DNA of 21,451 nt from a virus. Location of the stretch: positions 1-21,451 of the IMG/VR virus record IMGVR_UViG_3300030385_001948; one strand, written 5' to 3'. Under the pieces are notes generated by a model. That model saw only the letters and a program-made list of their open reading frames with translations, searched no databases and had not been told where the DNA came from. Below, piece by piece: positions 4,627 through 21,451 of the stretch (its first letter is position 1; every line of letters begins with the position of its first letter). The position numbers and the translations under genes are program-made.

Positions 4627-5402
4627 ATCGCCACCTGCTTGGGTTCGACTTTCAGCCCGTCCACGTCGCGCTTCTCGGTGCGGGCAACCTCGTCGGCCAT
4701 GCGGGCGAGGAAGGCCGTCATGTCGTCGGGCCGATGCACCCAGATCCACCGGGCGAACTCCCACTTGTCCGTGATCGTCGGGACGTAGCGGGTGGTGGTG
4801 CTGACCGCGCGGCCGGCGAACCCCTTGGCCTGGGCGCGTTGCTTGCCCAGCTTCGTCGCTTCGGCTTCGGCGGCCTGCGCATCGGCAAGCTGCTTCTCCG
4901 CAGCCTCACGTTCAGCAAGGTTGGTGCGGTCCACCTCGCGCACGGCCTTCTGCGCCGCCTCACGCTGCCGGTCGGCTTCCGCGCGGGCCTCGTCTGCGAT
5001 ACGCTTCTGCTCGGCAGCCTTCTTGGCGAGGTGCGCCCCGATCAGCGCCTTCATGGTCTCGATGGCGCGAACGGCCTTGCCCTTCACCTTCTTCGTGTCG
5101 GCGACGAGCGGGGCGTACTTCTCTTGGACTGCCGCGGCCGCGTCGTCGTGCGGTCGCTTCTCCTCGACGCGACGCTCGTCGGCCCGGTCCTTCGCAGCCT
5201 GCATGAGGCGGAGGAGCGCGGCGGCATCGGCGGCCTGTTCGTCCGTCTCGATGGGCTTGCCGTCTGCCCATAGCGCGCATTCCTCGTATAGGTCGCCGAT
5301 CTCCTTTGCGGACAGGTCGAACGGCTCCGGCGGGGGCTGGTTCGCACCGACGACAGCGCGCGGGTTCTCGGCGGCCTCGTTGGCGAGCATGTGGGCGGTC
5401 AT
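4623..5402 (-). CDS. Coiled-coil phage protein next to ERF, 259 aa
   Basis: A long helical Ala/Glu/Lys/Arg-rich region (about residues 75-195, for example KKAAEQKRIADEARAEADRQ) predicts an extended coiled coil. It is followed by a small folded C-terminal part with RYVPTITDKWEFARWIWVHR and ending KVEPKQVAI. Proteins of this shape commonly sit beside ERF or RecT genes in phages and are presumed recombination or DNA-end-processing partners. No nuclease motif is visible, so the role rests on neighbourhood only. The gene is coupled to erf downstream and to the 100-aa gene upstream, both by ATGA. Confidence 0.75.
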   Translation of the reverse strand: MTAHMLANEAAENPRAVVGANQPPPEPFDLSAKEIGDLYEECALWADGKPIETDEQAADAAALLRLMQAAKDRADERRVEEKRPHDDAAAAVQEKYAPLVADTKKVKGKAVRAIETMKALIGAHLAKKAAEQKRIADEARAEADRQREAAQKAVREVDRTNLAEREAAEKQLADAQAAEAEATKLGKQRAQAKGFAGRAVSTTTRYVPTITDKWEFARWIWVHRPDDMTAFLARMADEVARTEKRDVDGLKVEPKQVAI

Positions 5403-5701
5403 GACTGCACCGGGGCAGTTTTGGCGGCCTCCTGGAAATGCCGGATCATTGCGCCCTCGTTGGCGCCACCGCCGATGATGCCGCCCATCGGGTTGATGAC
5501 CGCGATGTGGACGAACTTCTTCCCGGTCAGCTTCGCGCTGTAGCCGGGGACGCCCTCAACCTCTGTGGGGCTCCGGTTGAACTCGACTTCCCACTCGTCG
5601 GTCTCGGCTTTCCAAAGACCGCGGCCATCGAAGTCCGCTGCGCCGCGGGCCGTGGCCCACTCTGCGAACGCCATGAACAGTTCGCTGATTCCGTCGCTCA
5701 C
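5399..5701 (-). CDS. Hypothetical protein, copy 1 of a duplicated gene, 100 aa
   Basis: Starts MSDGISELFMAFAEWATARG and contains ETDEWEVEFNRS and a Gly-rich GGIIGGGANE stretch. About 80 of 100 residues are identical to the protein at 6816-7118, with no gaps, so the two are recent paralogs within one operon. No known domain is recognised. Conserved acidic and aromatic residues suggest a small folded alpha/beta protein. Coupled by ATGA to both neighbours. Keeping both copies with substitutions but no frameshifts implies both are used, or that the duplication is fairly young. Confidence 0.75.
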   Translation of the reverse strand: MSDGISELFMAFAEWATARGAADFDGRGLWKAETDEWEVEFNRSPTEVEGVPGYSAKLTGKKFVHIAVINPMGGIIGGGANEGAMIRHFQEAAKTAPVQS

Positions 5702-6610: not shown

Positions 6611-6819
6611 CTCCGCGCCTCCATGACCTGCTGCTGCCGGGTCGCCTCGGCGTCCATCGCCTGGAACCCAGCCACCCACATGCCGGCCGCGCCGGCCGCC
6701 AGGATCAGCACGAACAGGCACCCGAGCGCCGCCCGCTTGACCTGCGCACGCTCCCGGCGGTTGAGGCCCATGCGCTCCCAAAGGCCGGTGGCAGGGCCGG
6801 GGGTGTAGACGCCGGTCAT
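6607..6819 (-). CDS. Small single-pass membrane protein, 70 aa
   Basis: One predicted transmembrane helix at about residues 31-51 (ALGCLFVLILAAGAAGMWVA). A basic stretch before it (NRRERAQVKR) implies an N-in orientation by the positive-inside rule. A short polar tail ends in EARR. Both ends overlap neighbours by ATGA, which supports it as a real gene. Small membrane proteins in early phage operons sometimes act in superinfection exclusion, but nothing here shows that. Confidence 0.55.
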   Translation of the reverse strand: MTGVYTPGPATGLWERMGLNRRERAQVKRAALGCLFVLILAAGAAGMWVAGFQAMDAEATRQQQVMEARR

Positions 6820-7118
6820 GACTGCACCTGTGCGACGCTGGCAGCTTCCTTGAAGTGCCGGATCATCGCATCCTCGTTGGCGCCGCCGCCGATGATGCCG
6901 CCCGTCGGATTGATGAGTGCGATGTGAAATAACTTCTTACCGATCAGCTTCGCGCTGTATGGCGGGACGCCATCGACTTCGGCTCGGCTCCGGTTGAACT
7001 CGACTTCCCATTCGTCAGTCTCAGCCTTCCAGAGACCTGGGCCGTCGAAGTCGGCAACGCCGCGGGCATTGGCCCAGTCTGCGAACGCCATGAACAGTTC
7101 GCTGATACCGCCGTCCAT
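6816..7118 (-). CDS. Hypothetical protein, copy 2 of a duplicated gene, 100 aa
   Basis: Starts MDGGISELFMAFADWANARG and is about 80% identical, without gaps, to the product of 5399-5701. Differences are scattered (for example Thr to Asn, Met to Thr, Gly to Asp), while ETDEWEVEFNRS and GGIIGGGANE are unchanged. Longer upstream frames exist, but the ATG at 7118 makes a TGATG overlap with the next gene and matches the paralog's length. Between the copies lie four unrelated small genes, so this is a dispersed rather than directly tandem duplication. Function unknown. Confidence 0.75.
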   Translation of the reverse strand: MDGGISELFMAFADWANARGVADFDGPGLWKAETDEWEVEFNRSRAEVDGVPPYSAKLIGKKLFHIALINPTGGIIGGGANEDAMIRHFKEAASVAQVQS

Positions 7119-13815: not shown

Positions 13816-14108
13816 TGGACGACCACCGCGACCTCGCCCGCGACTATCTGGCCGGCGCCACGATGATCGAACTGGCCGGCAAGTACGGCGTGAACCACAC
13901 CACCATTCACCGCCGCTTGAAGGCTGCCGGCGTGCCGACGCGCAGCTGCGGCGCTCGCACCACCGAGCAGAAGCTGGAGTTTGCCGCGCGGGTTGCCGAG
14001 CCTCCCCAGCCGATCGCAAGCCCGTACGTGGACACGTCGATGCTGTCCGAGATTCCCCTGAAGCCAGCCATACAGGCGCGCGTGCTCGGCGGGAGGGTGT
14101 GGCGATGA
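13815..14108 (+). CDS. HTH protein with shared C-terminal tail (first of three), 97 aa
   Basis: The ATG at 13815 gives a TGATG overlap with the previous gene; an ATG two codons earlier (13809) is also possible. The N-terminal HTH (ARDYLAGATMIELAGKYGVN, HTTIHRRLKAAGVP) resembles resolvase-type DNA-binding domains. The C-terminus, PLKPAIQARVLGGRVWR, recurs with small changes at the ends of the next two proteins. The codons for GGRVWR carry the GGGAGGG ribosome site for the following gene. Probably a DNA-binding accessory protein; its target is unknown. Confidence 0.7.
   Translation: MDDHRDLARDYLAGATMIELAGKYGVNHTTIHRRLKAAGVPTRSCGARTTEQKLEFAARVAEPPQPIASPYVDTSMLSEIPLKPAIQARVLGGRVWR
14088..14108 (+). 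repeat. Repeated SD/stop-start block, copy 1
   Basis: A 21-bp block (GGCGGGAGGGTGTGG then CGATGA) encodes the end of the shared tail, includes the GGGAGGG ribosome site and ends in the ATGA overlap. Near-identical copies lie at 14357-14377 (1 difference) and 14914-14934 (3 differences). Confidence 0.7.
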
Positions 14109-14377
14109 ACGCCGTCTATCTCAACACCGCTCAGATCCGCGAGGACTACCGCTCCGGCATGACGCGCAATGAGATTGCCGCCAAGCACCGGACGACGCGG
14201 GCAGTCATCCTAGCGCACATGAAGGCGAACGGGATCCCGCAGGATCGGAACCTGATCCCAGCGCCGGGCGAGGAGAAGCAGTGCAAGCCGGTCGCTACGC
14301 ACGCATCCCTGACTGCGGAGGTGGCACTACGCCCTGCCGTTCAGGGCCGCGTCATTGGCGGGAGGGTCTGGCGATGA
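14105..14377 (+). CDS. HTH protein with shared C-terminal tail (second of three), 90 aa
   Basis: MNAVYLNTAQIREDYRSGMT and then NEIAAKHRTTRAVILAHMKA form an N-terminal helix-turn-helix much like that of the gene before it, suggesting the two arose by duplication. The C-terminus is ALRPAVQGRVIGGRVWR. Start and stop are coupled to the neighbours by ATGA. Function unknown beyond probable DNA binding. Confidence 0.7.
   Translation: MNAVYLNTAQIREDYRSGMTRNEIAAKHRTTRAVILAHMKANGIPQDRNLIPAPGEEKQCKPVATHASLTAEVALRPAVQGRVIGGRVWR
14357..14377 (+). repeat. Repeated SD/stop-start block, copy 2
   Basis: Same block as 14088-14108, differing at one position (T to C at 14368/14099-equivalent). It serves the start of the 186-aa gene at 14374. 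Confidence 0.7.
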
Positions 14378-14934
14378 CCATCACCGACGAAGCCCGCGCC
14401 GTGGCCCGCGAGTACATCATGTGGCGGATGTGCGAATGCGAGTGGGGCCTGCATCGCATCCTGGACGAAAGCACGATTGCCCATGCCAGCCAGCTGACCG
14501 AACGCGACGCGATCGACCTCGTCGCCGCGCATTGGCAGCGGTACATCAAGCCCGGCTCCAGCGGCACGGTCACGCCAGCGCCGAGCAAGCCCGCGGCCGT
14601 CGGCGAGGTGGTCGACTTCAAGACCGAAGACCCGCTCGACCATGTCATCCGCACTGCCGTGATGGGCGCCGCGAAGTCGTACCGGTCAGCGCACGCCGGG
14701 GAGCGGGTAGACGAGCCGCATTTCGTCGGCAGCCTCGCCAAGCGGGTGCTGGGTGAACTGCTATCCGTGACCGGCCGGGAGCGCCTGCAGAAGGCCCTAG
14801 AGGCATCGGAGAGCAACGCGCCGCAGCCCGTGCCCGACACGCCGGTCTACGCGCCGAGCACCGATCTTGCCGCCAAGGAACTGAGGCCTGCCGAGAAAGG
14901 CCTGCGCGTCATCGGTGGGAGGGTCTGGCGGTGA
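14374..14934 (+). CDS. Hypothetical protein with shared C-terminal tail (third of three), 186 aa
   Basis: Starts MTITDEARAVAREYIMWRMC. The N-terminal helical domain (EREAIDLV-like, ERDAIDLVAAHWQRYI) is followed by a Pro/Ser linker, a second helical part (DHVIRTAVMGAAKSYRSAHA, RVLGELLSVTGRERLQKAL) and another linker. It ends LRPAEKGLRVIGGRVWR, the same tail as the two HTH proteins upstream. It has no HTH and is otherwise unrelated, so the tail looks like a module attached to different bodies. ATGA start; GTG of the next gene overlaps its stop. Confidence 0.65.
   Translation: MTITDEARAVAREYIMWRMCECEWGLHRILDESTIAHASQLTERDAIDLVAAHWQRYIKPGSSGTVTPAPSKPAAVGEVVDFKTEDPLDHVIRTAVMGAAKSYRSAHAGERVDEPHFVGSLAKRVLGELLSVTGRERLQKALEASESNAPQPVPDTPVYAPSTDLAAKELRPAEKGLRVIGGRVWR
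14914..14934 (+). repeat. Repeated SD/stop-start block, copy 3
   Basis: Third copy of the block, with GTGA instead of ATGA at its end. It starts the 64-aa gene at 14931. Confidence 0.65.
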
Positions 14935-15125
14935 CGGTGCTCCCGTTCCCCACGCAATACGAGATCAGCGCCGTGGACCGCGCTCGCTGGATTGCCAGGC
15001 AGGCGGAGGAGGTCGCTGCGGCCAACCCCAACCCCTGGACCGTCATGGACGCGATCAACGCCAAGCAGCGCTTTGCCGCCGCCCTCGCAAAAGAGGCCGG
15101 CATTCATACGCGCGGAGAGGGGTGA
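14931..15125 (+). CDS. Hypothetical protein, 64 aa (GTG start)
   Basis: The GTG at 14931 overlaps the previous stop as GTGA and is served by GGGAGGG. The protein begins (f)MTVLPFPTQYEISAVDRARW and is mostly helical (IARQAEEVAAANPNPWTVMD, AKQRFAAALAKEAG). The end carries GGAGAGG for the next gene. No domain recognised. Confidence 0.55.
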   Translation: MTVLPFPTQYEISAVDRARWIARQAEEVAAANPNPWTVMDAINAKQRFAAALAKEAGIHTRGEG

Positions 15126-15129
15126 GCGC

Positions 15130-15630
15130 GTGAGCGGGACGCCTTTCATGCAGCTCTACGTCGCCGACTATCTGGGCGACACGATGCACCTGAGCACTGA
15201 GCAGCATGGGGCTTACCTCTTGCTGCTCATGGCGATGTGGCGTGCGGGCGGCTCGCTCCCCAACGACGAGAAGAAGCTGGCACGGATCGTCGGTCTGTCC
15301 ACGATCAAATGGCGGCGGGTGGCCGCCGACGTGATGGCGTTCTTCACGGTCGACGGCGACGAGATCACTGCTTGGCATCTGGAACGCTGGCCAGCCGAAT
15401 ACCGCAAGATGCAGGGGCGGACGCCGCTCCCGCAGTCGGTGAGACAGGCAATCATCGAGAGAGACGGGCAGCGGTGCCGCTACTGCGGCGGCGAGACCGG
15501 GCCTTTCCAGATTGACCATATCGTTCCGTTCGTCCGAGGCGGGACTGACGACCACGAAAATCTGACCGTGGCGTGCAAGCCGTGCAACCAGTCGAAGGGC
15601 TTCAAGCTGCTTGGGGAGTGGCGCCAATGA
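15130..15630 (+). CDS. DUF1376 (YdaU-like) domain fused to an HNH nuclease, 166 aa
   Basis: The GTG at 15130 is chosen because GGAGAGG lies about 8 nt upstream and the conserved domain begins at TPFMQLYVADYLGDTMHLST. Residues 5-90 are a DUF1376 domain (EQHGAYLLLLMAMWRAGGSL, LARIVGLSTIKWRRVAADVM, AWHLERW), found in phage replication-initiation proteins. Residues 98-166 are an HNH domain with C116-x2-C119, D129-H130, N144 and C149-x2-C152-N153. DUF1376 proteins normally continue with a basic linker and a DNA-binding tail, so the HNH part is an unusual replacement. It is immediately followed by a second, conventional DUF1376 gene. Confidence 0.85.
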   Translation: MSGTPFMQLYVADYLGDTMHLSTEQHGAYLLLLMAMWRAGGSLPNDEKKLARIVGLSTIKWRRVAADVMAFFTVDGDEITAWHLERWPAEYRKMQGRTPLPQSVRQAIIERDGQRCRYCGGETGPFQIDHIVPFVRGGTDDHENLTVACKPCNQSKGFKLLGEWRQ

Positions 15631-16430
15631 GCGAGCGCCCTTGGTACAAGCGGTACCCGTCCGACTTCATCGCCGGCACGCTCGGGATGAGCCTGGAGGA
15701 GAAGGGCGCGTACAGCATCCTTCTGGACCTGATCTATGACCGCGGCCGCCCGATACCGGACGACGCTCGCTACCTTGCCGGCGTCTGCGGATGCTCGGTC
15801 AGGAAGTGGAACACCATCCGCGAGCGCCTCATCGATGCCGGCAAAATCTTCTGCCGAGACGGCTTTCTGACCAACTCCCGCGCTGAAAAAGAGATCGAGA
15901 ACGCCGCGAAAATCGCGCGAAAACTCGCTGAAAACGGCGCGAAAGGCGGAAATAAAAAGGCCGAAAACGCAGCGGCCGCAAGCGAAAACAATAACATAGC
16001 CGTAGTCGAGCTACCACTCACGCGCGTTCTCCAGAAGCCAGATACCAGAGAAGAAAAGAAAGAACCCCATCCCCCTTCGGGGGATCCCCCCCACGAAGCC
16101 GCGACGGGTCCGCCTGCCAAGCGGGCGACCAGCCTGCCAAGCGATTGGTGGCCTGGGGAAGCCGAAGTCGAGTTCGCAAGGTCGAAGGGGTTTACCGATG
16201 ACGAAATCCGAGCCACTGCCGAAATCTTCCGGGATTCCTGGGTCGCAAAGGGCGGTGCGGCTGGTCGAAAAGCCGATTGGCCAGCCACATGGCGGAATTG
16301 GGTCCGTCGCGACATCGAGGACGGTCGCCGCGGCCCAAAGGCTCATGCAGCTGCGGCCCGCGGAAACGGACGCGGGCCTGCTAGCTACTCTGAGGTCGCG
16401 CTACGGCGTGTCCATGCAGCCCGCCTATAG
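15627..16430 (+). CDS. DUF1376 replication protein (YdaU-like), 267 aa
   Basis: MSERPWYKRYPSDFIAGTLG, MSLEEKGAYSILLDLIYDRG, PDDARYLAGVCGCSVRKWNT and ERLIDAGKIF define a full N-terminal DUF1376 domain (about 1-95). An Ala/Asn/Lys-rich, A-rich-coded linker (about 95-150) follows, then a C-terminal domain with FTDDEIRATAEIFRDSWVAK and DWPATWRNWVRRDI, the usual tail of phage initiator proteins comparable in position to lambda O. It probably binds the phage origin. From about 16330 its third-position GC falls while another frame's rises, so the last about 30 codons may be weakly constrained. ATGA coupling with the fused gene upstream. Confidence 0.8.
   Translation: MSERPWYKRYPSDFIAGTLGMSLEEKGAYSILLDLIYDRGRPIPDDARYLAGVCGCSVRKWNTIRERLIDAGKIFCRDGFLTNSRAEKEIENAAKIARKLAENGAKGGNKKAENAAAASENNNIAVVELPLTRVLQKPDTREEKKEPHPPSGDPPHEAATGPPAKRATSLPSDWWPGEAEVEFARSKGFTDDEIRATAEIFRDSWVAKGGAAGRKADWPATWRNWVRRDIEDGRRGPKAHAAAARGNGRGPASYSEVALRRVHAARL
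16069..16085 (+). repeat. Perfect inverted repeat inside the DUF1376 linker
   Basis: ATCCCCC-TTC-GGGGGAT, 7-bp arms with a tight loop, follows an A-rich stretch (about 15940-16065) and is followed by six C. It encodes part of a low-complexity linker, where nucleotide structure is free to exist. No T-run follows. Confidence 0.45.
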
Positions 16431-17852: not shown

Positions 17853-18148
17853 CCGCGCCCCTGATCCTCATCGGCCGCTGCGGCGACACCCCCGGCCAGT
17901 ACGTCACCAGCCTCCCCGACGGGACGGAGCTATGCCGGGGCAGGCAGGCGGTGCGTCCTGCGGCGCGGGTGCTGCTGGATCTCGGATACGACCCGGCGAC
18001 GATGCTGACGATCCAGTTCGTGGGGGCGGTGGTGTCGAGCTTCGTCCCGCGCACCATCCGCGCATGGGCTGCCGACCCCGACGACGGCCCCGCGGTGTCG
18101 CGTGGGTACGTCTCGGCATACGACGCAGCGGTGGCGGCGCCGGCATGA
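17849..18148 (+). CDS. Hypothetical protein, 99 aa
   Basis: MTAPLILIGRCGDTPGQYVT start; the middle (GRQAVRPAARVLLDLGYDPA, TMLTIQFVGAVVSSFVPRTI) is a mixed alpha/beta fold, and the end is polar. Coupled by ATGA on both sides. No family recognised. Confidence 0.55.
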   Translation: MTAPLILIGRCGDTPGQYVTSLPDGTELCRGRQAVRPAARVLLDLGYDPATMLTIQFVGAVVSSFVPRTIRAWAADPDDGPAVSRGYVSAYDAAVAAPA

Positions 18149-18285
18149 GCGAGCCCAACGCGCAGGGTGCCGTTTCTTGCCGCCTAGCGTCGCCCAGGAT
18201 TAGCGGCGACGCCCTGGCCGCTGTACGGGGACCCCTGACCGCTCCCGCGAATGTACGACGCTCTACGGAGGACTTTCGAGCATGA
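18145..18285 (+). CDS. Hypothetical short protein, 46 aa
   Basis: MSEPNAQGAVSCRLASPRIS, then ALAAVRGPLTAPANVRRSTE and DFRA. It begins by ATGA overlap and ends by ATGA overlap with the next gene, but its codon choice is less typical of the neighbours and it has no recognisable structure. It contains the strong GGAGG ribosome site of the following gene. Might be a genuine microprotein or only a leader. Confidence 0.35.
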   Translation: MSEPNAQGAVSCRLASPRISGDALAAVRGPLTAPANVRRSTEDFRA

Positions 18286-18758
18286 GCAAGCGCCAGCGTC
18301 GCCAGCGCAAGGCCGTCCTCCCGCCGCCGAAGTACGGAGACCCGACACCGGAACGCCGCCAGCACTCCCACCTCCGCGAGGTCGAGACCATCGAGGCCGG
18401 TGTGCGGGCGTGGCAGGACGAGGCGCCACTGAAGCTGGACGCCTACCACGAGCATCGCCGCATCACTGACCTGCAGCACCAGGCCGGCGAGATGTACCGC
18501 GAGATGGCGTTCAACTCCGGCAAGCTCGACAAGGGCGCGTTCCGGTACGGCGCCGTCGGCGGCATGGGCGAGATCAGCGACGAGTTCGCCGAGCGTGACC
18601 GGGCGTTCCGAGACGCGGCCCGCTCCATCGGGTCGTTCATCATGGCGACGGACGCGCTGTGCCTGTACGACTTGCACGCGCCCATCGCGGAGGTGATCGA
18701 GGGGCTGGACCGGCTAGCGGCTCACTTCGGGATCACCAATCGCAGGCGAAGGGCTTGA
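18282..18758 (+). CDS. DUF6456-like possible late regulator, 158 aa
   Basis: A strong ribosome site (GGAGG about 10 nt before ATG) precedes MSKRQRRQRKAVLPPPKYGD. The N-terminus is very basic. The central RDRAFRDAARSIGSFI and the C-terminal ALCLYDLHAPIAEVIEGLDR then LAAHFGI resemble the end of DUF6456 domains in alphaproteobacterial prophages. It is the last gene before a new promoter and structured leader, the place where lambda has the antiterminator Q. A late-regulator role is an inference from position; the domain resemblance is moderate. Confidence 0.6.
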   Translation: MSKRQRRQRKAVLPPPKYGDPTPERRQHSHLREVETIEAGVRAWQDEAPLKLDAYHEHRRITDLQHQAGEMYREMAFNSGKLDKGAFRYGAVGGMGEISDEFAERDRAFRDAARSIGSFIMATDALCLYDLHAPIAEVIEGLDRLAAHFGITNRRRRA

Positions 18759-18782
18759 CATGCAAGGTGGAATCTCTAAGAT
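18755..18782 (+). promoter_or_regulatory. Candidate late promoter
   Basis: TTGACA (18755-18760), 16-bp spacer, TAAGAT (18777-18782): a good sigma70-type promoter that begins at the very end of the preceding gene (its TGA is 18756-18758). Predicted start about 18789, giving a leader of about 75 nt before the ATG at 18864. Confidence 0.65.
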
Positions 18783-18786
18783 GATT

Positions 18787-18840
18787 CGCGCGAAGGACCC
18801 GCGCGTCCAAAATCCGGCCTGCTGCACCGCTGCGCAGGCC
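18787..18840 (+). promoter_or_regulatory. Structured leader of the late unit
   Basis: Two inverted repeats follow the promoter: CGCGCG at 18787-18792 with 18800-18805, and GGCCTGC (18816-18822) with GCAGGCC (18834-18840) around an 11-nt loop. No T-run follows. The position directly after a promoter and before the first late gene is where antitermination or pausing elements act in lambdoid phages. Confidence 0.4.
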
Positions 18841-18863
18841 TCGCGTGATTCCGGGAGCCCGCG

Positions 18864-19508
18864 ATGAGCGACTATCCCGCCGAGCCCGACCTCTACCGCA
18901 TCGCAGCGACGCCGGTAGACCCGAAGCCGGAGAGCGCGGGCGCATTCGTCATTTCGCATCAGGAAGCCGGGCGGTCGCCGACCTATCGTATGTTCTTCCC
19001 GGACGGCACAAAGCGGGCTGCGACCGAAGCTGAGGTTGCCGAATGGCGCCGCCAGCGCATCTCGGGCGTGGTGGGCATTGCTGGCACAGAGTGGGCAGCG
19101 CCGCTGGACGATGAAGCCGCTGCTGCCGACACGGTAAAGTATCTCATCGAGCGCGGCAGAGGGCTAGCGGCCATTGCCGAGCCCGACCACGCCGCCGCCC
19201 CCACCGAAGCCAAGGCGCAGAGGGTGGCGGATGAGGGATGGGGTGGCGCGCCGTCGGCCACTGTCGAGATCGAATCCGCCGCCTTGGCTGACATGATCAG
19301 GGTGGCGTTTCTCGACGGCTTCCATATGGCGGACATGGGCGGCACCGATGCGATGGTGCTGCTTGGCGCCGTCGAGTACGCTGAGGAGCATGTGGCCAAC
19401 CTGCTGGCGGACGCAGACGACCTGCCCACGCTGGACGAGATCGCTGCGGATTTGTCCGACGACCTCCCCACGCTTCCCGCCAATGCACTGCGCACCTGGG
19501 AAGGCTGA
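18864..19508 (+). CDS. Hypothetical protein, 214 aa
   Basis: MSDYPAEPDLYRIAATPVDP start. The first third contains PTYRMFFPDGTKRAATEAEV, then an Asp/Ala-rich linker and a helical C-terminal half with EIESAALADMIRVAFLDGFH and EYAEEHVANLLADADDLPTL. Strongly acidic at the end. No family recognised. First gene of the unit driven from 18755; the next gene overlaps its stop as TGATG. Confidence 0.65.
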   Translation: MSDYPAEPDLYRIAATPVDPKPESAGAFVISHQEAGRSPTYRMFFPDGTKRAATEAEVAEWRRQRISGVVGIAGTEWAAPLDDEAAAADTVKYLIERGRGLAAIAEPDHAAAPTEAKAQRVADEGWGGAPSATVEIESAALADMIRVAFLDGFHMADMGGTDAMVLLGAVEYAEEHVANLLADADDLPTLDEIAADLSDDLPTLPANALRTWEG

Positions 19509-19732
19509 TGGCTACCGCTGCGGGGTGTATCGAAACGGGAATCCCCGTAACGGAACAATTTCAATGCTTTGCATGGGCATACGTCGCACAACAGTTTGAC
19601 CCGTTTCTGATGACGCTAGTCGGAGTGTCGGTCAGCCTAGTCGGCGGCATCGTCTTAGCTGGCGTGTTCGCGCTTCTGCTGCGCCACGCAAAGCGCAGGG
19701 CGTGGAGCCGCACAGAGGGAGCGCGGGACTGA
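19508..19732 (+). CDS. Small membrane protein, 74 aa
   Basis: MATAAGCIETGIPVTEQFQC start with one transmembrane helix at about 34-58 (LMTLVGVSVSLVGGIVLAGV, then FALLL) followed by a basic end (RHAKRRAWSRTEGARD). The basic side should be cytoplasmic. A small phage membrane protein could be a holin-like or lysis accessory protein, but no lysis gene is nearby, so it is left as unknown. Confidence 0.55.
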   Translation: MATAAGCIETGIPVTEQFQCFAWAYVAQQFDPFLMTLVGVSVSLVGGIVLAGVFALLLRHAKRRAWSRTEGARD

Positions 19733-19866
19733 TGGCCGACGCTCCGGCATCGCCGCCCACCCCCTCCCGCACCTCAGTAGACGAGATCCCTCCGTCCACC
19801 GTAACGCGCATACGCATAGCGAGCGGCGCAAGGGTCAAGGTAGCGGGACGGATGACGGGAACGTGA
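19732..19866 (+). CDS. Hypothetical protein, 44 aa
   Basis: MADAPASPPTPSRTSVDEIP, then STVTRIRIASGARVKVAGRM and TGT. TGATG overlap with the membrane protein gene. The end is basic and beta-like. Very short and low in complexity at the start, so it may not be a separate gene. Confidence 0.4.
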   Translation: MADAPASPPTPSRTSVDEIPPSTVTRIRIASGARVKVAGRMTGT

Positions 19867-19868
19867 AG

Positions 19869-20118
19869 ATGCCGCTGCCGGACCTGCGTACCACCGACCG
19901 CCGAACGCTCGCCAAGCTGGCGAGCCCGTCCGGTGCGCCGTCGCTGGTACGGCTGGCCATGTGGCGACATCGGTTATCTGGTCGGCATCGGCTACGTCGA
20001 TGTGCGCTACCACCATCACGAGGACGTGCTGGAGGCGAGCATCACCCCTGCAGGCGTAAGGGGCTTGGGGATCGAGCGCCAGTACCACATCGTGCCTCTC
20101 GCATACGCAGGCCAGTGA
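19869..20118 (+). pseudogene. Possible frame-broken gene
   Basis: From 19869 one frame reads MPLPDLRTTDRRTLAKLASP then SGAPSLVRLAMW with high third-position GC up to about 19960. From there the +1 frame reads GDIGYLVGIGYVDVRYHHHE and on to HIVPLAYAGQ with high third-position GC until the TGA at 20118, while the first frame turns poor. One gene with a +1 shift near 19960 would explain both halves; two overlapping genes or a programmed shift are alternatives. A sequencing error cannot be excluded. Confidence 0.4.
19933..20118 (+). CDS. Hypothetical protein, 61 aa (GTG start), if not part of a broken gene
   Basis: Read as its own gene from the GTG at 19933, this encodes GDIGYLVGIGYVDVRYHHHE and ends HIVPLAYAGQ. 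The body looks protein-like, with regular hydrophobic spacing and GC-rich third positions. The first dozen codons (MRRRWYGWPC) are less convincing. No ribosome site is clear. Confidence 0.4.
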   Translation: MRRRWYGWPCGDIGYLVGIGYVDVRYHHHEDVLEASITPAGVRGLGIERQYHIVPLAYAGQ

Positions 20119-20152
20119 CAGACCTCCGCAGCAAAGAGGCGGCAGAGTAGGG

Positions 20153-20482
20153 ATGCCGAGCCGTCCACCCGTTCACCGCCCAGCCGGCTACAAGCCACCA
20201 GAGCAGCGGAAGCGGGAAGCGGACAAGAGACGCGGCAACGCACGACAGCGCGGGTACGACGCAGACTGGGAACGCGCCCGCCTCGTCGTGCTGGCAGAGG
20301 AACCGATGTGCCGCTTCTGCGCTGAGCGCGGCGACGCCACCCCGGCACGCGAGGTCGACCACATCATCCCGATAGCAGATAGGCCAGACCTGCGGCTCAC
20401 ACGGTCCAACTTGCGCAGCCTGTGCCGCCCCTGTCATTCGCGACGGACGGTGAGGGATCAGGGGTTCGCACGCGGGCAATAG
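20153..20482 (+). CDS. HNH endonuclease, 109 aa
   Basis: C53-x2-C56 (MCRFCAERG), VDH at 68-70 (EVDHIIPIADRPDL), N87 and C91-x2-C94-H95 (SLCRPCHSRRT) give a complete HNH motif. The basic N-terminus (EQRKREADKRRGNARQRGYD) suits DNA contact. Small HNH proteins of exactly this type often lie beside terminase genes of siphophages and assist packaging cleavage. Here the next gene is another HNH protein rather than a terminase subunit. Ribosome site AGTAGGG just before the ATG. Confidence 0.9.
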   Translation: MPSRPPVHRPAGYKPPEQRKREADKRRGNARQRGYDADWERARLVVLAEEPMCRFCAERGDATPAREVDHIIPIADRPDLRLTRSNLRSLCRPCHSRRTVRDQGFARGQ

Positions 20483-20516
20483 TGGCTGACGTAGCTGGAA
20501 TAAGGTAGAATTGAGC

Positions 20517-20551
20517 GGCTCGACGAGGTGCTGGAAACACCGCGCCGAGCC
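20517..20551 (+). ncRNA. Strong hairpin ahead of the last HNH gene
   Basis: GGCTCG (20517-20522) pairs with CGAGCC (20546-20551); inside it CG (20524-20525) pairs with CG (20543-20544) and GGTG (20527-20530) with CACC (20538-20541), around a CTGGAAA loop. Two isolated mismatches only. It lies 27 nt before the ATG at 20579 in an otherwise non-coding gap (20483-20578). The same strand could also encode a short C-terminal remnant (IERLDEVLETPRRA then TGA). A structured RNA linked to the nuclease is a hypothesis. Confidence 0.4.
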
Positions 20552-20578
20552 TGACCAACGAGTGATGGTGGCACCCGA

Positions 20579-21421
20579 ATGGCTCGACGTTATGTACGCC
20601 GTCTCCCCGTCCCGTGCAAACAGTGCGCGGGGCTCTTCAAGCAGCGGACTGACCGGCACCTGTATTGCTCTCGGGTTTGCGCCGCGATGGCGGCGACCAC
20701 TGCATCCAGCGCGGGTGAGTGCGAGCACTGCGGAGTATCGTTTAAGAGACGCAGCACCAATCGCGACGCGGGCAGGTTTTGCTCTCGAACGTGTGCGTTT
20801 GCGTGCCTCGCCGAGAAGGCGGCGCTCGCGGCAGCTCGTAAAGGTTTGTTGGGGCTGCTGGCGAGCCGGGCAGAGTGCGCATACTGCAGCGCGCCTTATC
20901 GGAAGCGGGGCAACTGGAAGTTCTGCGGCGACGCCTGTAGATCGGCCGCTTCAGCCGCCGCCGCGCGTGCCGCGTACCGCATCTTGGCGCGCCAATGCGG
21001 CGAGCACGCTCTACGAGAGTGCGTCCATTGCAGCAGTCCATTCACGCCGGTGCATGGCAGACAATTACTGTGCAGCGAGCGATGCGCCAATCGGAGGCAC
21101 GGGTCTGGGAAGACCCACAGAGCGAGGGCTAGGCGCGCGGGCGTGGAGTATGAGCCGGTCAAAAGAACGCGCGTGTTTGATCGAGACGCATGGCGCTGTC
21201 AGGTATGTGGAGCAAGGACCCCAAAGCGCCTGATCGGGTCCACGAAGCCAAACGCTCCGGAGTTGGACCACCGCGTGCCCTTGGCACTAGGCGGGGGCCA
21301 CACGTGGGCAAACGTGCAGTGCGCATGTCGAGCGTGCAACGCACGGAAGGGCGGAGTGCTGGTCCTAGGGCAAATGCCCCTCTTCGCGAACCCGGAGGGG
21401 AAGGCGAGGACCGGGGCATAG
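20579..21421 (+). CDS. HNH endonuclease with several zinc ribbons, 280 aa
   Basis: Four Cys4 modules in a row (C13/C16/C30/C34; C48/C51/C68/C72; C100/C103/C116/C120; C148/C151/C165/C169) precede a C-terminal HNH domain: DRDAWRCQVCG (C207, C210), LDH 229-231, N245 and CRACNARKG (C250, C253). A basic linker (THRARARRAGVEYEP) joins them. The four ribbons likely give long-site DNA recognition, as in homing nucleases. The gene has no good ribosome site and lower codon bias than its neighbours, and stands alone between a hairpin and an AT-rich inverted repeat, consistent with a mobile insertion. Confidence 0.88.
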   Translation: MARRYVRRLPVPCKQCAGLFKQRTDRHLYCSRVCAAMAATTASSAGECEHCGVSFKRRSTNRDAGRFCSRTCAFACLAEKAALAAARKGLLGLLASRAECAYCSAPYRKRGNWKFCGDACRSAASAAAARAAYRILARQCGEHALRECVHCSSPFTPVHGRQLLCSERCANRRHGSGKTHRARARRAGVEYEPVKRTRVFDRDAWRCQVCGARTPKRLIGSTKPNAPELDHRVPLALGGGHTWANVQCACRACNARKGGVLVLGQMPLFANPEGKARTGA

Positions 21422-21428
21422 CAAAACT

Positions 21429-21446
21429 AGAAAATGCACGTTTTCT
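21429..21446 (+). repeat. AT-rich inverted repeat after the last HNH gene
   Basis: AGAAAA (21429-21434) and TTTTCT (21441-21446) flank TGCACG. It is the only clearly AT-rich palindrome in the window and lies 7 bp beyond the TAG of the HNH gene. The TTTT arm makes a weak terminator possible; it might equally mark the edge of an inserted element. The window ends 5 bases later. Confidence 0.4.
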
Positions 21447-21451
21447 GGGAC

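Follow-up and report, generated by a model that had tools for sequence, protein, structure and literature searches.

A candidate SymR/R1162-type cis-antisense control module at the start of a viral HNH endonuclease gene

The virus record IMGVR_UViG_3300030385_001948 of IMG/VR, which was analysed over its whole length of 21,451 bases and is here called the window, ends with an open reading frame (ORF; 20579–21421, plus strand) for an HNH endonuclease of 280 amino acids with repeated zinc ribbons. The leader of this gene and its first codons very probably form a cis-antisense control module of the SymR/R1162 type. The hairpin at 20517–20551 in this leader is part of a widespread module, present at more than 100 viral and bacterial loci, and the proposed type follows from two properties of that family: an antisense promoter at a fixed position inside the gene, and end-to-end matches to three families of antisense RNA. 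The antisense promoter is the main signal that an earlier note on this DNA overlooked, in which the hairpin, the gene and an AT-rich palindrome had been described as a possible self-contained mobile unit. The parts of the module in the window are the following.

20506–20511, plus strand: predicted sense −10 box TAGAAT (score 7.48, top 0.03% of window positions)
20517–20551, plus strand: hairpin 1 of the leader, complementary to the 3' hairpin that the antisense RNA is predicted to form
20527–20541, plus strand: conserved apical core GGTG-CTGGAAA-CACC, with a loop of the form YUNNNAR; the only match in the window, with none expected
20550–20556, plus strand: conserved tail CCTGACC (family alignments A1 and A4)
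20559–20577, plus strand: probable hairpin 2, CGaGTG / CACcCG, as read from the sequence
20512–20585, minus strand: predicted antisense RNA of about 70–75 nucleotides (nt), which would start near gene position +6 and end with the complement of hairpin 1
20591–20596, minus strand: predicted antisense −10 box TACATA (gene +12..+17)
20615–20620, minus strand: predicted antisense −35 box TTTGCA (spacer 18)
20579–21421, plus strand: the putatively regulated gene for the 280-residue multi-zinc-ribbon HNH endonuclease (Pfam, PHROG)

Hairpin 1 consists of 6 + 2 + 4 pairs with two 1 × 1 mismatches and a 7-nt loop; its energy is −19.7 kcal/mol and its 45-mer has a z score of −2.85 against shuffles; over the entire 96-nt leader, stability is unremarkable (z −0.48). 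The ribosome site GGTGG (20567–20571) lies in the loop of the probable hairpin 2, and CCA at 20555–20557 is able to pair with UGG at 20580–20582, at the start codon. The sense −10 box is accompanied by a weak −35 box (GTGGCT), and the predicted start of sense transcription is the foot of hairpin 1. On the opposite strand, the −35 and −10 boxes together reach a score of 4.76 (top 0.2% of window positions). The extent of the predicted antisense RNA was set by its position relative to the annotated SymR and by the full-length Rfam matches of sister elements.

The family was reached through a protein search with the HNH gene product, which led to locus L002 (best-segment identity 57%), and through a search with the stem pattern, which led to L006, a locus with a different HNH gene. 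Both loci share one form of hairpin: its core, GGTGYTNNNARCACC, leads into CCTRACC, and the start codon comes about 25 nt further on. The pattern of core and tail recurs in at least 120 stretches of viral contigs and again in at least 120 of genome contigs, and these matches also contain the outer stem, the Shine-Dalgarno region and ATGGCT, although none of these was part of the pattern. The module is thus described as a unit of about 75 bp formed by a 5' hairpin with the core GGTGYUNNNARCACC, the tail CCURACC, a weaker hairpin 2 that contains the ribosome site, and AUGGCU about 25 nt after the tail. The position that closes the loop is nearly always C..A or T..G; as Y and R were already fixed there by the pattern, information comes only from how one side is coupled to the other. 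Matches with T..A or C..G at this position mostly have neither stem nor start codon, and were treated as chance.

An alignment of 61 elements was used to evaluate covariation. In the drawn helices 90% of the cells pair, and there are 42 two-sided changes, compared with 9.8 in shuffles (none of 500 shuffles reaches 42) and with 19 or fewer in controls with a slid partner. The outer stem of hairpin 1 covaries, G–U pairs included, and the mean z of hairpin 1 is −4.4 in the viral set and −4.2 in the genome set. At the start codon, 99% of the cells of the closing stem CCR/UGG pair, with too little variation for proof; in symE, which has UCA in its tail and AUGA as its start, this stem would be preserved through changes on both sides. 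A first covariance model, R1, was built from viral-contig elements only and contained the window's own row, for which reason a second model, R2, left out the window, L002 and L006. R2 recovers the window element (20510–20586) with 56.2 bits and an E value of 2.4e-12. The hairpin highlighted in the earlier note is thus real.

These data also bear on the idea that the element acts as DNA, for instance as a terminator or as a cos- or att-like site. It is a palindrome, as such a site might be, and at L002 and at a further homologous locus, L003, the gene lies in the interval before terS. However, a DNA site explains neither covariation that includes G–U pairs nor the conserved order of hairpin, tail, ribosome site and AUGGCU, and the element occurs in bacterial chromosomes and before many kinds of genes. 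This explanation is disfavoured, and we regard it as extremely improbable. A search of positions 18000–21451 found no intrinsic terminators.

For the promoters, a general sigma70 matrix was aligned on the start codons of 72 non-redundant viral loci, of 57 independent loci in bacterial genomes, and of a pool of 123–124 loci. On the antisense strand the viral loci show a single sharp peak, with the last base of the −10 box at gene position +13 and the −35 box near +35 to +40. The peak is strongest in the 50 viral genes without N-terminal zinc motifs (+1.8 at +13, against a background of −5.9, standard deviation 1.5), so that conserved zinc ribbons do not account for it, and it appears at the identical position in the 57 bacterial-genome loci (+0.6 against −5.9, standard deviation 1.6). 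Over 123 loci the mean score at +13 is 0.8, compared with −7.4 to −3.8 at the other offsets of the same codon phase (Wilcoxon 4e-18). The motif TAnnnT stands precisely at +18..+13 in 46 of 124 loci, while other offsets have a mean of 0.7 and a maximum of 16; at L003 the box is a perfect TATAAT in this position. Coding conservation was considered as the source of the antisense −10 box and was ruled out: genes that lack zinc motifs still show the peak, and other offsets in the same codon phase do not. An antisense sigma70-type promoter with its −10 box at about +18..+13 is thus found in the family, and in the window at +17..+12 with a weaker box. On the sense strand, the −10 scores of 124 loci peak 10–11 nt upstream of the foot of hairpin 1 (best score 5.3, compared with 1.2 in an upstream control), a distance from which the mRNA should begin with the hairpin.

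A predicted mRNA start at the hairpin foot is also what would be expected if the hairpin were bound by a phage or host protein, or if it shielded the 5' end of the mRNA from decay, and the almost invariant apical stem and tail, together with a loop closure that is nearly always C.A or U.G, agree with this. Nevertheless, no partner protein has been linked to the element, the antisense promoter would be left unexplained, and the loop YUNNNAR is its own reverse complement, which fits a contact between sense and antisense loops. A protein-bound or protective hairpin is therefore considered very unlikely.

The kinship of the module with known antisense RNAs was examined with the Rfam models of SymR (RF01809, curated cut-off 61 bits), R1162 (RF00043, 55 bits) and PtaRNA1 (RF01811, 47 bits), applied with a lax threshold. 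RF00043 matches L070 (38.6 bits), L041 (37.0) and L025 (34.2) over positions 1–75 of its 75; RF01811 matches L070 (36.3 bits) and RF01809 matches L041 (34.7 bits) and L070 (30.4), in both cases end to end and on the antisense strand. In the other direction, the leader between urfF and RepA of IncQ1 is found by R1 (30.2 bits, E 7e-6) and by R2 (32.0 bits). The antisense −10 box at +18..+13 reads TAGAAT in symE and TAGGCT in IncQ repA, and at the true PtaRNA1 locus TAGGAT can be read at that offset. As a side observation, the RF00043 model aligned to L263 (1495–1575) runs along the repA mRNA strand and ends in AUGGCU, although it is listed as an antisense RNA, and the RF01809 and RF01811 models run on the strand opposite to it; the strand of RF00043 in Rfam may be reversed.

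SymR offers the closest view of how such a module could work. As predicted for the module, it is a cis-antisense RNA of about 77 nt with its promoter inside the gene, it covers the ribosome site and start codon, and the arrangement is a stem-loop, a tail and a stem-loop with the ribosome site; the annotated SymR has 77 nt and its 5' end at symE +6. It is abolished by a silent change of CATTCT to CACTCC in symE (Kawano et al., 2007; PMC1891008), a site that coincides with the antisense −10 position of the module. SymR lowers the synthesis of SymE (Kawano et al., 2007; PMC1891008), and in a review these data are interpreted as blocked translation (PMC4147584). The target differs, being a toxin under LexA control in SymE and an HNH nuclease in the window. 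The 75-nt copy-number RNA of R1162/RSF1010 (IncQ; Kim and Meyer, 1986, cited in PMC2864571) has the CCUAACCA tail and AUGGCU in common with the module, but it controls plasmid replication and its apical stem is GGGG/CCCC instead of GGUG/CACC. The third relative shares the cis-antisense layout and the −10 offset, and differs by a longer GC hairpin and another tail; this RNA, PtaRNA1, is a plasmid-transferred antisense RNA. In phages, an antisense RNA beside a homing endonuclease gene has been described in cyanophage S-PM2, where the antisense RNA CfrI links psbA and the endonuclease gene; no module at the nuclease start codon is described there (review PMC12197685). The open-access literature yielded no paper connecting these RNAs with phage HNH genes (subscription journals lay outside the search).

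One alternative is a plain hairpin in the leader of the sense mRNA that delays or limits translation with no antisense RNA involved. Such hairpins are known for the phage T4 homing endonuclease genes mobE and I-TevI. The covarying hairpin 1, situated about 30 nt upstream of the start codon, and the many homing-type nucleases among the downstream genes are compatible with it. It leaves unexplained, however, an antisense promoter at a fixed place in unrelated genes, the conserved second codon GCT and the end-to-end matches to three antisense families, and the ribosome site has no pairing partner in hairpin 1; this explanation appears unlikely.

Several observations weigh against an antisense control module, or against its presence in this particular gene. 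All Rfam matches of phage elements fall under the curated cut-offs, and the window itself gives no match to RF00043, RF01811 or RF01809 at E values up to 10, where only chance matches appear. R1 misses E. coli symE and the true PtaRNA1 locus (R2 likewise misses symE), so that for these two the evidence of kinship comes from the Rfam models and the common layout. Hairpin 2 is supported only weakly: the mean z of its region is −0.8 (viral) and −0.9 (genome) compared with −0.3 in a control stretch, and a single-sequence fold of the window pairs the region differently. The window's antisense −10 box, TACATA, is one base off the family position and weaker than the consensus. Finally, the homologous HNH loci L004, L005 and that of Sinorhizobium phage NV1.1.1 have no module, and neither do four more distant HNH loci. 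Judged by the refuting condition of the earlier note, the hairpin is not specific to this gene: it is found at L002 and L003, is missing at L004, L005 and NV1.1.1, and also precedes other genes.

With respect to the gene itself, its product matches Pfam HNH (PF01844) with 2.1e-8 and 34.6 bits (cut-off 21.4) and the PHROG HNH endonuclease with 3.9e-29, in agreement with the earlier description of a multi-zinc-ribbon HNH gene; a Pfam-type domain search detected no further nuclease domain. Among the matches listed, the viral modules sit mainly before genes of the HNH, endonuclease VII-like and GIY-YIG types. The 69 downstream proteins comprise 18 with a match to HNH_3, along with others that match HNH, HNH_5, endonuclease VII, NUMOD, AP2 and GIY-YIG-type families. 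Among 20 viral loci drawn at random, 11 have HNH, endonuclease VII or homing endonucleases (PHROGs) and three more look GIY-YIG-like by eye; an anti-repressor, a methyltransferase and an excisionase-like protein are among the remaining genes. The viral loci were the first of the matches listed, and these shares are consequently rough. A structured RNA does accompany the HNH gene, as the earlier note had supposed, and the module also stands upstream of L002, L003 and many unrelated nuclease genes. A structured RNA next to an HNH gene could suggest the guide of an RNA-guided nuclease similar to IscB/HEARO. Yet at the gathering score the window matches no Rfam family, HEARO included, and shows nothing of the IscB/HEARO type; the product is a small zinc-ribbon HNH protein; and the same element, which overlaps the start codon, precedes methyltransferase, anti-repressor and replication genes. 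A guide RNA is disfavoured and has almost no probability in our assessment, and the leader RNA appears, from its sequence features, to be a regulatory module rather than a guide RNA or an intron-like element.

Che8-like mycobacteriophages have the element in front of gp77, gp78 (a RepA-like initiator) and gp79 (a helicase loader), an arrangement that parallels IncQ plasmids. In Mycobacterium phage Che8 (L330, about 2050–2120) the element lies within annotated gene 76, immediately before gp77, and this short ORF 76 may not be a gene. In one bacterial family, 37 of 121 genomes have at least one copy and 13 at least two. A rhizobial multi-copy gene family whose products start MADSDNSRTLS.. has the element upstream (L086, L157, L241, L294, L296–L299 and similar loci). 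Among co-resident copies in Rhizobiaceae-type genomes, too few share a loop for a comparison of incompatibility, and the automatic extraction missed 6-nt loops.

L002 (57% identity over its best segment) and L003 (36%) are diverged homologues of the HNH gene, both with the module upstream; that of L003, a locus found via the protein and not via the hairpin pattern, scores 47 bits with R1. Their gene order is HNH, module, zinc-ribbon HNH, and small and large terminase genes (terminase being an ORF reading). Two relatives of L002, L336 and L337, have the related HNH gene and terS separated by about 160 nt, with neither module nor zinc-ribbon HNH gene. Because both are lacking between common flanks, module and gene appear to have come or gone together at this one homologous site, with ends that are inexact at about 72% nucleotide identity between occupied and empty sites. 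The proposed self-contained unit stands to this extent, and its palindrome and direct repeat are not supported as unit features.

The inverted repeat at 21429–21446 (AGAAAA-N6-TTTTCT), 3' of the HNH stop codon, is exact, AT-rich and the sole such site in the window, where about 0.1 would be expected at up to two mismatches. Although real, it is not conserved: nothing resembling it follows the gene in L002 or L003, and since the window is a complete record, the supposed right-hand boundary is the contig end, 30 nt past the stop codon. In L002 and L003 the terminase genes come after the zinc-ribbon HNH gene, where the window has the inverted repeat, and a G-rich run, GGGGGGCGGG, lies in the same interval of L002 and its relatives and could be a cos-type site. 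The direct repeat GGCTCGACG exists as exact copies at 20517 and 20581, but this 9-mer has four copies in the window against 0.9 expected, and it was given no weight because the second copy overlaps the conserved ATGGCT start.

Elsewhere in the window, the upstream neighbour protein (18864–19505) found no relatives as a query. A 300-nt direct repeat (5396–5695 and 6813–7112, 83% identity) spans two paralogous minus-strand genes (MSDGISELFMAFAEWA.. and MDGGISELFMAFADWA..). An identical 45-nt motif (..RVxGGRVWR stop) ends three consecutive genes (14064–14108, 14333–14377 and 14890–14934), whose remaining protein sequence differs. The gene at 14992–15630 encodes a DUF1376 protein with a C-terminal HNH domain and overlaps a second DUF1376 gene (15573–16430); its HNH part may have been inserted into a DUF1376 gene.

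The module, its conserved structure, the position of its antisense promoter, its kinship, its association with nucleases and its apparent joint gain or loss with the gene at one site are all read from sequence comparison, and on this basis a mechanism can be proposed. The sense promoter would start the mRNA at hairpin 1, behind which the ribosome site and start codon would lie in a structured stretch. The backward promoter, with its −35 and −10 boxes within the first 42 nt or so of the gene, would produce an RNA of about 75 nt complementary to the leader and start codon, and this RNA is presumed to be made in the phage of the window. By analogy with SymR, it would pair with the mRNA and repress translation of the HNH gene. 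The nuclease would then be kept low where the antisense RNA has accumulated, and a burst would be possible in a cell without any, as on entry into a new one.

Free-standing homing nucleases must be produced at the right time, and cutting at the wrong time has to be avoided. To our knowledge, little is known of how they are controlled in phages outside the T4 group, and for many of these phages the module would be a concrete answer. A broader proposal, possible but tentative, is that SymR, the R1162 RNA, PtaRNA1 and the phage modules constitute one family, a portable switch that allows expression on entry and silences once established, and that phages have placed mainly on homing-type nucleases. 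The variable loop of 6–7 nt would give each copy its own identity, so that a resident copy would silence only later entrants like itself. Three antisense RNAs described separately, in plasmid copy control, with an SOS toxin and as a plasmid-transferred antitoxin, would thereby be joined, and the fixed geometry of the family would allow antisense RNAs to be predicted from the sequences of phages, plasmids and bacterial chromosomes.
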